Below are positions 19,561 through 29,813 of a stretch of 53,237 nucleotides of DNA, piece after piece. The stretch covers positions 1 through 53,237 of the forward strand of contig JAFRJG010000002.1 in the NCBI GenBank assembly GCA_017432365.1, in the 5' to 3' direction. This DNA is from Candidatus Saccharimonadota bacterium. GTDB lineage: Bacteria; Patescibacteriota; Saccharimonadia; Saccharimonadales; Saccharimonadaceae. The notes under the pieces are model-generated. The model did not search any database, was not told the DNA's origin, and worked only from the letters and a program-made list of their open reading frames with translations. The first letter of the stretch is position 1, and every line of letters begins with the position of its first letter. The position numbers were made by a program, and so were the translations under genes.

Positions 19561-20861
<1,301 letters not shown>

Positions 20862-20873
20862 TGAAAAAACCTC

Positions 20874-20902
20874 TTGACAATTAAACTTAAACGTCATATA
20901 TT
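20874..20902 (+). promoter_or_regulatory. Consensus promoter of an RNA gene
   Basis: TTGACA (20874-20879), exactly 17 bases, TATATT (20897-20902). This is one of the best -35/-10 pairs in the window, and no start codon follows within a normal distance. The transcript would start near 20909, at the foot of the closing stem of the RNA described next. Confidence 0.75.
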
Positions 20903-20908
20903 AAACAT

Positions 20909-21053
20909 AAGCTGATACGCTTCACAGGGTTCCACTGATTCTTAGTGGAGTGTGGAGACTACATTAAAAACAAAAACAGCGGATTAAAACAAAACAATGT
21001 GCCCTAGGGTGGGCGCGCATCAGCAGAAGCCGGATTTAGCCCCGGCTTCTTTC
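20909..21053 (+). ncRNA. Candidate structured non-coding RNA, class unknown
   Basis: About 145 bases between a consensus promoter and a hairpin terminator, located between obg and uvrB, which has its own -10 box beyond. The ends of the body pair: 20911-20920 (GCTGATACGC) with 21015-21024 (GCGCATCAGC), 9 of 10 pairs. Inside are a hairpin TCCACT/AGTGGA extended by CACA/TGTG, an ACATT/AATGT stem with a long A-rich loop (AAAAACAAAAAC), and GCCC-TAGGGT-GGGC. AGGG in the first hairpin can also pair with CCCT near 21003, a possible pseudoknot. I see no tmRNA, SRP, RNase P or tRNA signature. A GTG-started frame of about 20 codons runs through it, but it has no ribosome-binding site. Confidence 0.6.
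21025..21053 (+). terminator. Terminator of the structured RNA
   Basis: AGAAGCCGG (21025-21033) pairs with CCGGCTTCT (21042-21050), followed by TTC. The T-tract is short. The core resembles the hairpin at 7697-7713. Confidence 0.6.
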
Positions 21054-21054
21054 A

Positions 21055-21063
21055 TGGTATAAT
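21055..21063 (+). promoter_or_regulatory. Extended -10 of leaderless uvrB
   Basis: TGg-TATAAT seven bases before the ATG at 21071. It overlaps the tail of the RNA terminator, so uvrB is transcribed separately from the RNA. Confidence 0.55.
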
Positions 21064-21070
21064 TATCCTT

Positions 21071-23068
21071 ATGAAATTCGAACTTGTCTCGAAATATGCC
21101 CCAACCGGCGACCAGCCTGCCGCAATAAAAACCCTAACCAAGGGTCTCAAAGAGGGAATTAAAGAACAATGTCTGCTCGGCGTTACTGGTAGCGGTAAAA
21201 CCTTCACCATGGCGAATCTGATTCAGAACTTCCAACGCCCGACTCTCGTTCTCACTCATAACAAAACCCTCGCCGCCCAACTTTACTCCGAGTTCCGCGA
21301 CTTCTTCCCTAAAAACGAAGTCCATTATTTCGTTTCATACTTCGATTATTATCAGCCGGAAGCTTATATCGCCTCGACCGACACTTACATCGAAAAAGAT
21401 TCGATGATTAACGAAGAAATCGACCGCCTTCGCCACGGCGCAACCGAAGCGCTCCTGACTCGCGACGACGTCATTATTATCGCCTCGGTCTCTTGTATCT
21501 ATGGTATCGGCTCCCCGGCGAATTATCAGGAAATGTCTCTCCCCCTCTGGAAACGTGCCGATGGCTGGTACACTTCTAATGACCGCAAGCTCCAAAACCA
21601 GCTCGATTTCACGCGTGCCCTTGTTTCGATGCAATATCATCGTAACGACCTCGCCTTCGAGCGCGGCAACTTCCGCGTTTCTGGCGACACCATCGACCTA
21701 TATCCCGCTTCTGGCGAATGGGGGTATCGGTTTGAATTTACTTTCGATACCCTTGAAACCGTTAAAATTATTGACCCCTTGACCGGCGAAGTCCGCGAAA
21801 AGCCCGACCATGTTCATATCTTCCCTAACACTCATTACGCTACCCCGCGCGAAGACCTCGAACGCGCCCTCGGTCTGATTGAAAAAGAATACAAAGCACG
21901 TCTCGCTTTTTTCGAGCAACACGAAAAATACCTCGAGGCTCAGCGCCTCTCCCAGCGTATTAAATACGACCTAGAAATGCTCGAAAGTACCGGCTTCGTC
22001 AAGGGAATCGAAAACTACTCGCGCCACCTCGAGGGCAGAAAAGCCGGCGAACCGCCTTCGACCCTCCTCGACTTTTTCCCAGACGACTTTCTCCTTCTCG
22101 TCGACGAGTCTCACATGACCTTGCCTCAGGTTCGCGGTATGTATCACGGCGACCATTCTCGGAAACAGAACCTCGTCGATTACGGCTTCCGCCTCCCGTC
22201 CGCTCTTGATAACCGCCCCTTGACCTTCCCGGAGTTTTATCGCCATATCTCTCATGCCGTTTACGTCTCCGCAACCCCGGGAGATTATGAACTTGAAGTT
22301 TGTCCGAAGCCCGCGGAACAGGTTATCCGCCCGACCGGATTGCTCGACCCGGAAATTGAAGTCCGCTCCTCTGAAGGTCAAGTTGATAACCTCATGGAAG
22401 AAATTGACCGTCGTGTCGCAAAACATCAGCGCACCCTCGTCACAACCTTAACAAAGCGCATGGCGGAAGACTTAACCGACCATCTCAAGGAACGCGGAAT
22501 TAAAACCGCCTATATTCATTCCGACATCGACACTCTCGAACGTGGCGACATCCTCCGCGACCTCCGCGCCGGCGTTTATGATGTTCTCGTCGGGATTAAC
22601 CTCCTCCGTGAAGGTCTCGACCTCCCCGAAGTCTCCCTCGTCGCGATTCTCGACGCCGATAAAGAAGGCTTCCTCCGCTCTGAATCCGCTCTGATTCAGA
22701 CCATCGGTCGTGCCGCCCGCCACGTTGAAGGAAAAGTTATTATGTACGGCGACCATCTAACCGAAGCTATGGAAAAAGCTATTTCCGAAACCGCCCGTCG
22801 TCGCGAAATCCAGACCGAATATAACCGCGCCCATCATATCACCCCTAAGGGAATTGACAAAGAAATCTCCGCTGGACTCCGCGCTATTATCCCCGAAAAA
22901 GAGGTCGCCTCGAAACTCGACATTAAACACATCCCGCGCGAAGAACTCCCCTCGCTCGTTAAAGAGCTTGAAAGCCAAATGCGTCTCGCCGCCGCCAATC
23001 TTGAATTTGAGCGCGCTGCCCTCCTTCGGGACCAAATCAGTGACATCGAAAATCTTAACAAAACTTAA
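21071..23068 (+). CDS. uvrB: UvrABC excinuclease subunit B
   Basis: 665 residues, normal length. UvrB receives damaged DNA from UvrA, verifies the lesion and recruits UvrC. Visible: Walker A GVTGSGKTFT (residues 37-46), the beta-hairpin region SYFDYYQPEAYI (about 92-103), the DEAD-like VDESH, helicase motifs V and VI (INLLREGLDLPE and QTIGRAARH) and a C-terminal UVR motif (LEFERAALLRDQI). No LexA-type operator was seen upstream. uvrA and uvrC are not in the window. Confidence 0.97.
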   Translation: MKFELVSKYAPTGDQPAAIKTLTKGLKEGIKEQCLLGVTGSGKTFTMANLIQNFQRPTLVLTHNKTLAAQLYSEFRDFFPKNEVHYFVSYFDYYQPEAYIASTDTYIEKDSMINEEIDRLRHGATEALLTRDDVIIIASVSCIYGIGSPANYQEMSLPLWKRADGWYTSNDRKLQNQLDFTRALVSMQYHRNDLAFERGNFRVSGDTIDLYPASGEWGYRFEFTFDTLETVKIIDPLTGEVREKPDHVHIFPNTHYATPREDLERALGLIEKEYKARLAFFEQHEKYLEAQRLSQRIKYDLEMLESTGFVKGIENYSRHLEGRKAGEPPSTLLDFFPDDFLLLVDESHMTLPQVRGMYHGDHSRKQNLVDYGFRLPSALDNRPLTFPEFYRHISHAVYVSATPGDYELEVCPKPAEQVIRPTGLLDPEIEVRSSEGQVDNLMEEIDRRVAKHQRTLVTTLTKRMAEDLTDHLKERGIKTAYIHSDIDTLERGDILRDLRAGVYDVLVGINLLREGLDLPEVSLVAILDADKEGFLRSESALIQTIGRAARHVEGKVIMYGDHLTEAMEKAISETARRREIQTEYNRAHHITPKGIDKEISAGLRAIIPEKEVASKLDIKHIPREELPSLVKELESQMRLAAANLEFERAALLRDQISDIENLNKT

Positions 23069-25665: not shown

Positions 25666-27143
25666 TGCCCGCCACCCCTTCATCAAAAACAACCGCCGAT
25701 AAAACCTCTTCTCAAAACCCTCAAAAATACGGCCTCACAATCGGTATCGAGTGCCACGTCCAGCTCAAGACCAAGACTAAGCTCTTCTCTGAAGTTGATA
25801 ACGACGCCCGCGGTAAGGCTCCGAACTCTTGCGTCTCCCCAGTTGACTATGCTCTCCCTGGCATGCTCCCGCGCCTGAACGGGGAAGCAGTTCGCCTCGC
25901 TATTCGCGCCGGCGCCGCCATGAACGCCGAAATTAACCCGAAATCTCGCTTCGACCGGAAACATTATTTCTACCCCGACTCCCCGAAAGGTTATCAAATC
26001 ACCCAATTCTACTCTCCGATTATCGGCGCTGGGTTTATTGAACTCCCTTCCGGAAAGAAAATCCGTATCGAACATGCTCATCTCGAAGGCGATGCCGGAA
26101 AACTTTCTCATTACGCCGACTACTCCCTCGTCGATTTTAATCGCGTCGATACCCCGCTCCTCGAAATCGTTTCTATGCCCGATATTTCCTCCGCGGAAGA
26201 AGCGCGCGACTATTGCAAGGAACTCTGGCGCAATATGCTGTTCGCCGATGTCACGAACGGCGACCTTTATAACGGCAACATGCGTTTCGACGTCAACATC
26301 TCCCTGAAAAAACCGGAAGCGACCGAACTCGGGACGCGCGCCGAAATTAAAAACCTCAACTCTTTCCGCTCGGTCGAACGTGCCGTTTTATATGAATACG
26401 AACGCCAATCGAAACTTCTCGACCATGGTGAAAAAATCGTTCAAGAAACTCGCGGCTGGTCTGACGCGACTGGGAAAACGACTGCCCAGCGCTCGAAAGA
26501 AGTCGCTCAGGATTATCGCTACATGCCCGAACCTGACCTACCGCCCTTGAACTTGTCTGAAGATTTTATTCAAGCCGAATACTCTGCCTGCCCGAAACTC
26601 CCCCAGGATTATCGTCGTGACTTCGCGAAAAAACTCCCGACCGATACTCTTGAAGTCCTCTTGGACTATCCTCTGCTCATGTCTCGCTTGTCTGAACTCG
26701 CCACAGACCACGCAGCGGCTCTTGCTTATATTGCTAATCTCTTTTCCTCCGTCCTCCTCGCCGAAGAAAACGCGAGCCTCTTGAACGATAAACTCCCAGA
26801 AGCTGCGAAACTCGCCGAACTCGCCGACATGAAGGCTCAAAACGAGCTCTCCTCGACTTCTGCGAAGGAAATCTTCCTCAAGTTATTTGAAGAAAAACAC
26901 TACGATAAATCTCCCCGCGCTCTCGCGAAAGAGTTAAATCTGATTCAGGAAAACGACTCGGCTGCCCTCGAAGCGCTGATTAACGAAGTTCTAAAAGACC
27001 CCTCAACCAAGTCCGCCCAAGAAGATTTCAAAAACGGTAAAGAAAAAGTCCTCGGCTTCCTCGTTGGCTCCGTCATGAAGGCCTCGAAGGGAAAAGCGAA
27101 CCCCGCCGCCGTCTCGAAACTCTTAAAAAATAAGCTCAAGTAG
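25665..27143 (+). CDS. gatB: Asp/Glu-tRNA amidotransferase subunit B
   Basis: 492 residues. Kinase/amidotransferase subunit that activates the tRNA-bound acid. Motifs: IGIECHVQLKTKTKLF near residue 27, the YFYPDSPKGYQITQ block, MRFDVNISL, GTRAEIKNLNSFRSVERA and DYRYMPEPDLPPL. The C-terminal YqeY-like tail domain covers about 340-492. It starts on the stop codon of the HEPN-like gene. With no downstream partner in the operon, GatCAB here is encoded as C-A-x-B. Confidence 0.96.
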   Translation: MPATPSSKTTADKTSSQNPQKYGLTIGIECHVQLKTKTKLFSEVDNDARGKAPNSCVSPVDYALPGMLPRLNGEAVRLAIRAGAAMNAEINPKSRFDRKHYFYPDSPKGYQITQFYSPIIGAGFIELPSGKKIRIEHAHLEGDAGKLSHYADYSLVDFNRVDTPLLEIVSMPDISSAEEARDYCKELWRNMLFADVTNGDLYNGNMRFDVNISLKKPEATELGTRAEIKNLNSFRSVERAVLYEYERQSKLLDHGEKIVQETRGWSDATGKTTAQRSKEVAQDYRYMPEPDLPPLNLSEDFIQAEYSACPKLPQDYRRDFAKKLPTDTLEVLLDYPLLMSRLSELATDHAAALAYIANLFSSVLLAEENASLLNDKLPEAAKLAELADMKAQNELSSTSAKEIFLKLFEEKHYDKSPRALAKELNLIQENDSAALEALINEVLKDPSTKSAQEDFKNGKEKVLGFLVGSVMKASKGKANPAAVSKLLKNKLK

Positions 27144-29198: not shown

Positions 29199-29813
29199 CT
29201 AGAGCCAGCTCAATAACCGCTCTCGCTCGGCACTCCCTGGCTCATACTGTGCCAAAATATCTTCCGTATAAGTTTTTCCGTTCGACAAATTAAGCGTCTC
29301 AACGTCCGGACACGCCGCAAGCAGTCTCACAATCGCCTCGTCCGTCTCAAAATTCGTCATACTACGGTTCTTGTCCGACGCATGCGAATGAACTCTCAAT
29401 TCCTCATACACAAACCTGACAATCCCCGCCTGGAGACAATACTTCAGACAGTTCTCGCAAGTCGCAATCTTATTATATAGCGTACACCCGGTTAAATCTC
29501 TCCCCGCAAACAAGACCGCGTTCATCTCCGAATGAATCGCAAAATAGTATTTCATCGGGCGCTCCTCGAGCGTCATTTTCGTCTCGTCCGCCCCTTGAAT
29601 CGTTCCGTTATACCCGAAGGAAACCGGTCGCTTTCGCTCGTCAACAATCACACACCCGTTCTTGCTCGACGGGTCTTTCGACTTCTTTGCGACCTCGTTC
29701 GCAATCCCCATAAAATACTCGTCCCACTTCTTCTGCCCCGCCAAAAACTCCTCCGCGGCTTTCTCGGAAAACTCTCGCGGAAACCCCCGGAAACTTTTAT
29801 CATTTTCAGCCAT
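29199..29813 (-). CDS. dCMP/cytidine deaminase-family protein
   Basis: 204 residues. Zinc-dependent deaminase fold: IHSEMNAVLFA supplies His and the proton-shuttling Glu, and ATCENCLKYC supplies two Cys ligands. SSKNGCVIVD and SFGYNGTIQG match deoxycytidylate deaminases, which make dUMP for dTMP synthesis. The loop Pro before the first Cys (usual PCxxC) is replaced by Thr (TCENC). The gene has TATAAT at 29834-29839 and a Shine-Dalgarno AAAGGAGG. It sits beside ung, which removes the uracil that such a pathway may raise. Confidence 0.88.
   Translation of the reverse strand: MAENDKSFRGFPREFSEKAAEEFLAGQKKWDEYFMGIANEVAKKSKDPSSKNGCVIVDERKRPVSFGYNGTIQGADETKMTLEERPMKYYFAIHSEMNAVLFAGRDLTGCTLYNKIATCENCLKYCLQAGIVRFVYEELRVHSHASDKNRSMTNFETDEAIVRLLAACPDVETLNLSNGKTYTEDILAQYEPGSAERERLLSWL

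Follow-up and report, generated by a model that had tools for sequence, protein, structure and literature searches.

We analysed a stretch of 53,237 nucleotides (hereafter the window) from the genome of a Candidatus Saccharimonadota bacterium (G000; 0.68 Mb in 19 contigs). As judged from its sequence, the interval from 20874 to 21053, between obg and uvrB, is a complete RNA gene made up of a promoter, a structured core and a terminator hairpin. The core occurs as a single copy in this genome. The features of the locus are as follows:

19578-20861: obg, upstream of the RNA gene
20874-20902, forward strand: sigma-70-type promoter, TTGACA (20874-20879), 17-nt spacer and TATATT (20897-20902), agreeing with the consensus at 11 of 12 positions
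20910-21024, forward strand: structured RNA core of 115 nt, an end-to-end covariance-model match (G000:C17:20910-21024)
20911-20920, forward strand: 5' strand of helix P1, GCUGAUACGC (DNA GCTGATACGC)
20921-20956, forward strand: local hairpin surrounding the 5' strand of P2
20926-20930, forward strand: 5' strand of helix P2, AGGGU, pairing with 21001-21005; the pseudoknot strand in the window's genus
20961-21000, forward strand: A-rich apical loop with invariant ACAGCGGAUUAAAACAAA, from invariant columns of the genus alignment
21001-21005, forward strand: 3' strand of P2, GCCCU
21008-21014, forward strand: invariant unpaired strand GGUGGGC, between P2 and P1
21015-21024, forward strand: 3' strand of P1, GCGCAUCAGC (DNA GCGCATCAGC)
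21026-21052, forward strand: terminator hairpin GAAGCCGG...CCGGCUUC with a TTT tail, inferred from sequence and fold
21055-21063, forward strand: extended -10 box of uvrB, TGGTATAAT, which begins its own transcription unit beyond the RNA
21071-23068: uvrB, with its ATG at 21071, downstream of the RNA gene

A sequence-only reading of this DNA had proposed a unit of about 145 bases with a near-consensus promoter, a closing stem of 9/10 pairs, an A-rich loop and a terminator, followed by a -10 box belonging to uvrB. We recovered all of these parts where that reading had placed them. The closing stem joins 20911-20920 to 21015-21024 with nine of ten positions paired. The terminator-like hairpin has 8 bp (GAAGCCGG/CCGGCTTC, 21026-21049) and a short T tail; its T run is too weak for a strict terminator scan, which did not report it. 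The extended -10 box of uvrB lies only 8 nt before the start codon, and the uvrB mRNA is therefore probably leaderless. The 800-base region contains two promoter-like sites, versus 0.4 ± 0.7 in shuffled sequences. Upstream of the homologues described below, promoter matches averaged 8.5 of 12 positions versus 6.5 in shuffles, and the best upstream site had a -35 element starting with TTG in 69 of 81 cases. A hairpin followed by a T run was detected downstream of 66 of the 81 homologues, compared to 9% of shuffled downstream sequences. Among the genomes of the genus, the promoter, start point and terminator move together with the RNA gene. We also noted a near-copy of the promoter (85% over 40 bases) elsewhere in the genome (L023:1501-1540, G000:C14:52144-52183), apparently upstream of a protein gene.

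We assessed whether the predicted fold is supported beyond the single sequence. The unit at 20909-21053 has a folding energy of -52 kcal/mol versus -34.9 ± 3.6 in shuffles (z = -4.8) and is more stable than all 200 dinucleotide shuffles; the z-score is -3.25 when the terminator hairpin is left out. The conserved fold comprises a closing helix, P1 (8-10 bp), and an inner helix, P2 (4-10 bp). Across 81 aligned matches, all 10 pairs of P1 change on both sides and 90% of the cells are paired. In the model alignment, 14 of the 14 modelled P1 and P2 pairs vary on both sides, with a covariation score of 0.409 versus 0.140 ± 0.010 for shuffled and ≤0.079 for slid controls. This model alignment is biased towards the structure, which gives weight to an alignment-free test of P2. 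We paired each sequence's own 5' region with its own or with a permuted 3' region and obtained a mean helix score of 16.9 versus 13.6 ± 0.3, with none of 10,000 permutations scoring as high. Relatedness is not fully corrected for in either test; the changes recur over approximately 26 families, and the slid controls are low. Counting structures in the genus alone was uninformative because there is too little variation. Each of the 20 genus sequences has P2 as either AGGG/CCCU or GGGG/CCCC. Among 79 sequences, P2 takes the form of 49 distinct helices, including GGGGUAC/GUGCCCC, GCGGCG/CGCCGC, GGCUCUU/AAGAGCC, CUUGCGAC/GUCGCAAG, UUGGCGCG/CGCGCCGG and many others in relatives.

The pairing of (A)GGG at 20926-20929 with CCC(U) at 21002-21005, which had been put forward as a possible pseudoknot, proved to be the genus form of this covarying P2. 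The hairpin GCCC/GGGC (21001-21004/21011-21014), perhaps the third internal stem of the sequence-only reading, is not conserved. We rejected this hairpin (P4), which is energetically favoured in some sequences, because its 3' strand is invariant while its 5' strand varies together with P2. The local hairpin around the 5' strand of P2 consists of an outer pairing of UUCAC (20921-20925) with GUGGA (20952-20956) and an inner pairing of UCCACU (20931-20936) with AGUGGA (20944-20949), and is kept in the window's genus with few changes. Its counterpart, P3, covaries in other genera of the window's family (14.1 versus 11.3 ± 0.35, 0 of 5000 permutations). Outside this family P3 gave no covariation signal (9.7 versus 9.5) and is ruled out there, and thus as a universal part of the RNA. 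Where P3 is formed within the family, P2 makes a true pseudoknot. In most of the family's genera, the window's own excepted, P3 also takes up the inner half of the 5' strand of P1, from which we infer that P1 and P3 may exchange.

The unpaired parts of the fold are also conserved. The 7-nt strand GGUGGGC is identical in all 79 aligned homologues, with the helices on either side of it changing. The A-rich loop is present as proposed; the apical loop is approximately 55% A among the homologues, and 76 of 79 contain AAACAAA or AAAUAAA. Single-base length differences inside the conserved part of the genus alignment rule out a coding function.

We searched for the element in the genus, the order and beyond. 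Of 23 other genomes of the genus, BLASTN detected it in 21, with identities mostly of 82-93%, and it was in none of 16 genomes from other families. Obg is only 57-80% identical over the same genus genomes, and conservation of the RNA is therefore no weaker than that of a core protein. Among the 295 genomes of the order, a covariance model built from the genus (R1) found one full-length match each in 130. Away from the genus and its near relatives the RNA is smaller, nearly all homologues measuring 76-96 nt; the cores range overall from approximately 76 to 124 nt. The whole unit in the window is approximately 145 nt, compared to about 85-120 nt plus a terminator hairpin in relatives. A second covariance model with P1 and P2 (R2) matched 227 of the 295 genomes, mostly once each, and 189 of the 223 good-quality genomes. 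By taxon, these matches cover 107 of the order's 143 genera and about 26 of its 37 families; the family count was taken from the matches listed, and a 31-base match in G037 was left out and not counted as a copy. Approximately 23% of the genomes lack an R2 match, which could reflect genome incompleteness, strict filters or real loss. In a phylum-wide draw of 380 genomes, R2 matched 31 of 32 members of the order (one of them through the 31-base match) and none of the five genomes from other orders of the class. The roughly 350 genomes from outside the order yielded no genuine copy. In other classes R2 gave a single match (G435), a false one that coincides with the end of a tRNA-Ile gene. On the evidence of these sequence searches, the RNA family is specific to the order of Saccharibacteria (TM7) and is present once per genome in most of its members.

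The genomic position of the RNA gene varies within the genus: it lies downstream of obg in many genomes and upstream of it or away from it in others. The element, for which the sequence-only reading had asked for a check of spacer conservation, is kept across the order with strong covariation, though not always at the obg-uvrB position. The next downstream gene differs within the genus and is on the opposite strand in 8 of the 17 loci with a called downstream gene. Among 80 sampled loci (L059-L138), 32 (~40%), drawn from several distant families, have tRNA-Ala(GGC) 43-209 nt downstream in the same orientation; in three cases the downstream tRNA is tRNA-Ala(CGC), and in another three tRNA-Ala(GGC) is downstream on the opposite strand. 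This linkage is probably an ancestral gene order that was lost in the window's genus, and it could also be a sign that the role is in cis or shared. Among protein families, none always adjoins the RNA gene. As regards a CRISPR tracrRNA or crRNA, no cas genes are apparent beside the RNA in the window, where the adjoining genes are obg and uvrB.

We compared the RNA with the 4227 families of Rfam 15 and found no match in sequence or structure. No family reached its gathering threshold at the element, and no weak match recurred over 13 homologues; those to DUF805 and BSnc120 were far below threshold and not recurrent. The only above-threshold match in the whole window is one tRNA, far from the element. 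No self-cleaving ribozyme family of Rfam matches the RNA. A tRNA or a Y-RNA-like RNA (YrlA, RF02553) was rejected, there being no ARAGORN or Rfam match within the RNA itself. The statement that the element bears no signature of RNase P RNA, tmRNA, SRP RNA or tRNA stands, as the corresponding models match none of them there.

We are highly confident that the element represents a real, stand-alone, trans-acting RNA family; this judgement does not extend to the choice of mechanism and is made without expression data. The proposal of a new structured RNA between obg and uvrB is upheld by the order-wide conservation, the strong covariation and the lack of an Rfam family. The RNA very likely matters to the cell, as it is found once per genome in most of the order, shows compensatory changes and keeps a 7-base strand unchanged in 79 copies. 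In the absence of transcript data we can only infer that it would be transcribed from its own promoter, would be abundant and would act in trans. Two covarying GC-rich helices, together with a conserved A-rich loop and an unpaired strand that does not vary, are typical of a binding platform. The helices may hold GGUGGGC and the A-rich loop as protein-binding sites, and the RNA would then be the core of a ribonucleoprotein or a decoy for one. Such a protein-bound RNA is the most likely single mechanism, at somewhat below an even chance; it is deduced from anatomy alone and the function is unproven. Antisense pairing with mRNAs is rather unlikely, and ligand binding or catalysis is more unlikely still. 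Tentatively, and without expecting it to be the case, we also consider that the RNA is an unknown housekeeping RNA of Saccharibacteria, either a new ribonucleoprotein core or a new regulator of tRNA or the ribosome acting through GGUGGGC, in bacteria that lack SRP.

Binding of tRNA 3' ends or of the ribosome by GGUGGGC is rather unlikely, on a par with antisense pairing. In RNase P, a GGU in the internal loop between two helices (L15) pairs with the RCCA of tRNA. In the new RNA two GC helices likewise flank an internal loop with a GGU, part of the invariant GGUGGGC, which could pair with ACC(A) in the same way. Most tRNA genes that we saw end in an encoded ACCA, and the linkage with tRNA-Ala(GGC) is frequent. 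Against this, pairing would generally be limited to three bases, the only genes seen to carry the full complement GCCCACC are a few for tRNA-Leu(UAA) and one for tRNA-Ile, and the linkage may be mere ancestral gene order. Unlike RNase P RNA, the new RNA has no other RNase P element, and the genome encodes a separate RNase P RNA. A related candidate, an antisense to tRNA acting through GGUGGGCGCG, was weakened because the invariance is confined to GGUGGGC, whose complement is present in few tRNAs.

A 6S-like RNA had been suggested because the ends pair, and a functional analogue of 6S RNA would bind RNA polymerase as a closed hairpin with a bubble inside it. Paired ends, an internal loop, a stand-alone single-copy gene, a strong promoter and an order-wide distribution agree with this, and the 6S model RF00013 has no match in 29 of 30 genomes searched. 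Nevertheless, the failure of RF00013 to match in G000 or in the region of the element and the anatomy count against the suggestion, and we regard a 6S function as very doubtful. 6S RNA has a long closing stem and a large central bubble in approximately 150-200 nt, whereas the new RNA is about half that size or less (~80 nt in most families) and has only a small asymmetric internal loop. Its most conserved parts, the invariant GGUGGGC and the A-rich apical loop, are features of its own. An ordinary-shaped 6S-like RNA is, moreover, present in a genome of another family of the same order (G025). That RNA (L028:1501-1654; G025:C51:16563-16716, minus strand) scored 32.4 bits with RF00013, below the curated cut-off, adjoins the RNase P RNA gene and was the only such match in the 30 genomes. 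G025 has no R2 copy of the new RNA.

We also considered a cis-acting leader, riboswitch or attenuator, in which the fold would sense something and control read-through into the downstream gene (uvrB here, tRNA-Ala elsewhere). The terminator directly follows the fold, tRNA-Ala(GGC) is next on the same strand in the 32 loci counted above, and the strand shared by P3 and the inner half of P1 in the window's family is switch-like. GGGUGG, with GCG close behind it and helices on either side of the loop, resembles the bulge of the T-box antiterminator (RF00230). In contrast to a T-box, the new RNA lacks a stem I, a specifier loop, ACC after UGGN and a model match, and in the loci read no aminoacylation gene lies downstream of it. 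Nor did any riboswitch model match, and no anti-terminator partner was seen. The RNA is not a leader, on our reading, because the downstream gene changes and in several loci is antiparallel, even within one genus; uvrB, in addition, has its own -10 box after the terminator. Regulation in cis is accordingly an improbable account that we give little weight.

A strongly divergent form of a known housekeeping RNA (SRP RNA, tmRNA or RNase P RNA) is practically ruled out. The housekeeping-like distribution would fit, as would the finding of no SRP RNA in the order. However, RNase P RNA and tmRNA are encoded elsewhere in the same genome, on contig C16 (RF00010 at 25742-26089; tmRNA at 29214-29573). 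There is no RF00010 match in the region of the element. The criteria for tmRNA, a tRNA-like domain with a tag ORF and a match to RF00023, are not satisfied by the element, and ARAGORN returned nothing at the locus. SRP RNA is marked by a helix 8 with a GNRA loop and AGCAG; neither RF00169 nor RF01854 matched in the order, and no helix-8 motif was clearly above control. Its partner Ffh is missing as well: the M domain (PF02978) was found in 0 of 20 genomes of the order (G000 and 19 relatives), and 14 of 14 controls were positive. SRP RNA was rejected as an identity on the grounds that neither it nor Ffh was found in the order. The absence of SRP is known in other CPR bacteria (PMC4508563, PMC8080830).

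Chance, meaning an ordinary intergenic spacer with a terminator, draws support only from the limits of single-sequence folding, and merits next to no credence after being refuted by order-wide conservation and compensatory change.

Saccharibacteria live as ultrasmall parasites on other bacteria. They are frequent in mouths, rumens and soils, and their genomes, 0.5-1.3 Mb in size, leave little intergenic space. To our knowledge, almost none of their RNA biology has been described. The new RNA is a concrete, clonable handle on it, and the covariance model enables easy annotation of the RNA and its testing in cultured strains. We found no description of the RNA in the open-access literature; most subscription papers were beyond that search. 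Orphan lineage-specific stand-alone RNAs discovered by comparative genomics (e.g. PMC2864571) are likewise single-copy, bounded by promoter and terminator, structured, of unknown function and confined to one lineage. The host lineage of the new RNA, in contrast, is not named in the main text of the large surveys examined. The RNA is new as a family, in that sense only: the genre is already known, and the function may prove familiar.

Almost all pattern matches in named genomes carry the label Candidatus Saccharibacteria (TM7). Among these records R2 confirmed strain TM7i (complete genome, CP075337.1; locus L265), TM7 oral taxon 348 (HOT-348), HGW-Saccharibacteria-1 and others. Pattern matches in Clostridium, Crocinitomicaceae, Cryomorphaceae and Rhodobacteraceae were not confirmed by R2. 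Two R2-confirmed records (L208, L213) are labelled Nomurabacteria and carry Saccharibacteria-type copies; they are possibly misnamed metagenome bins.
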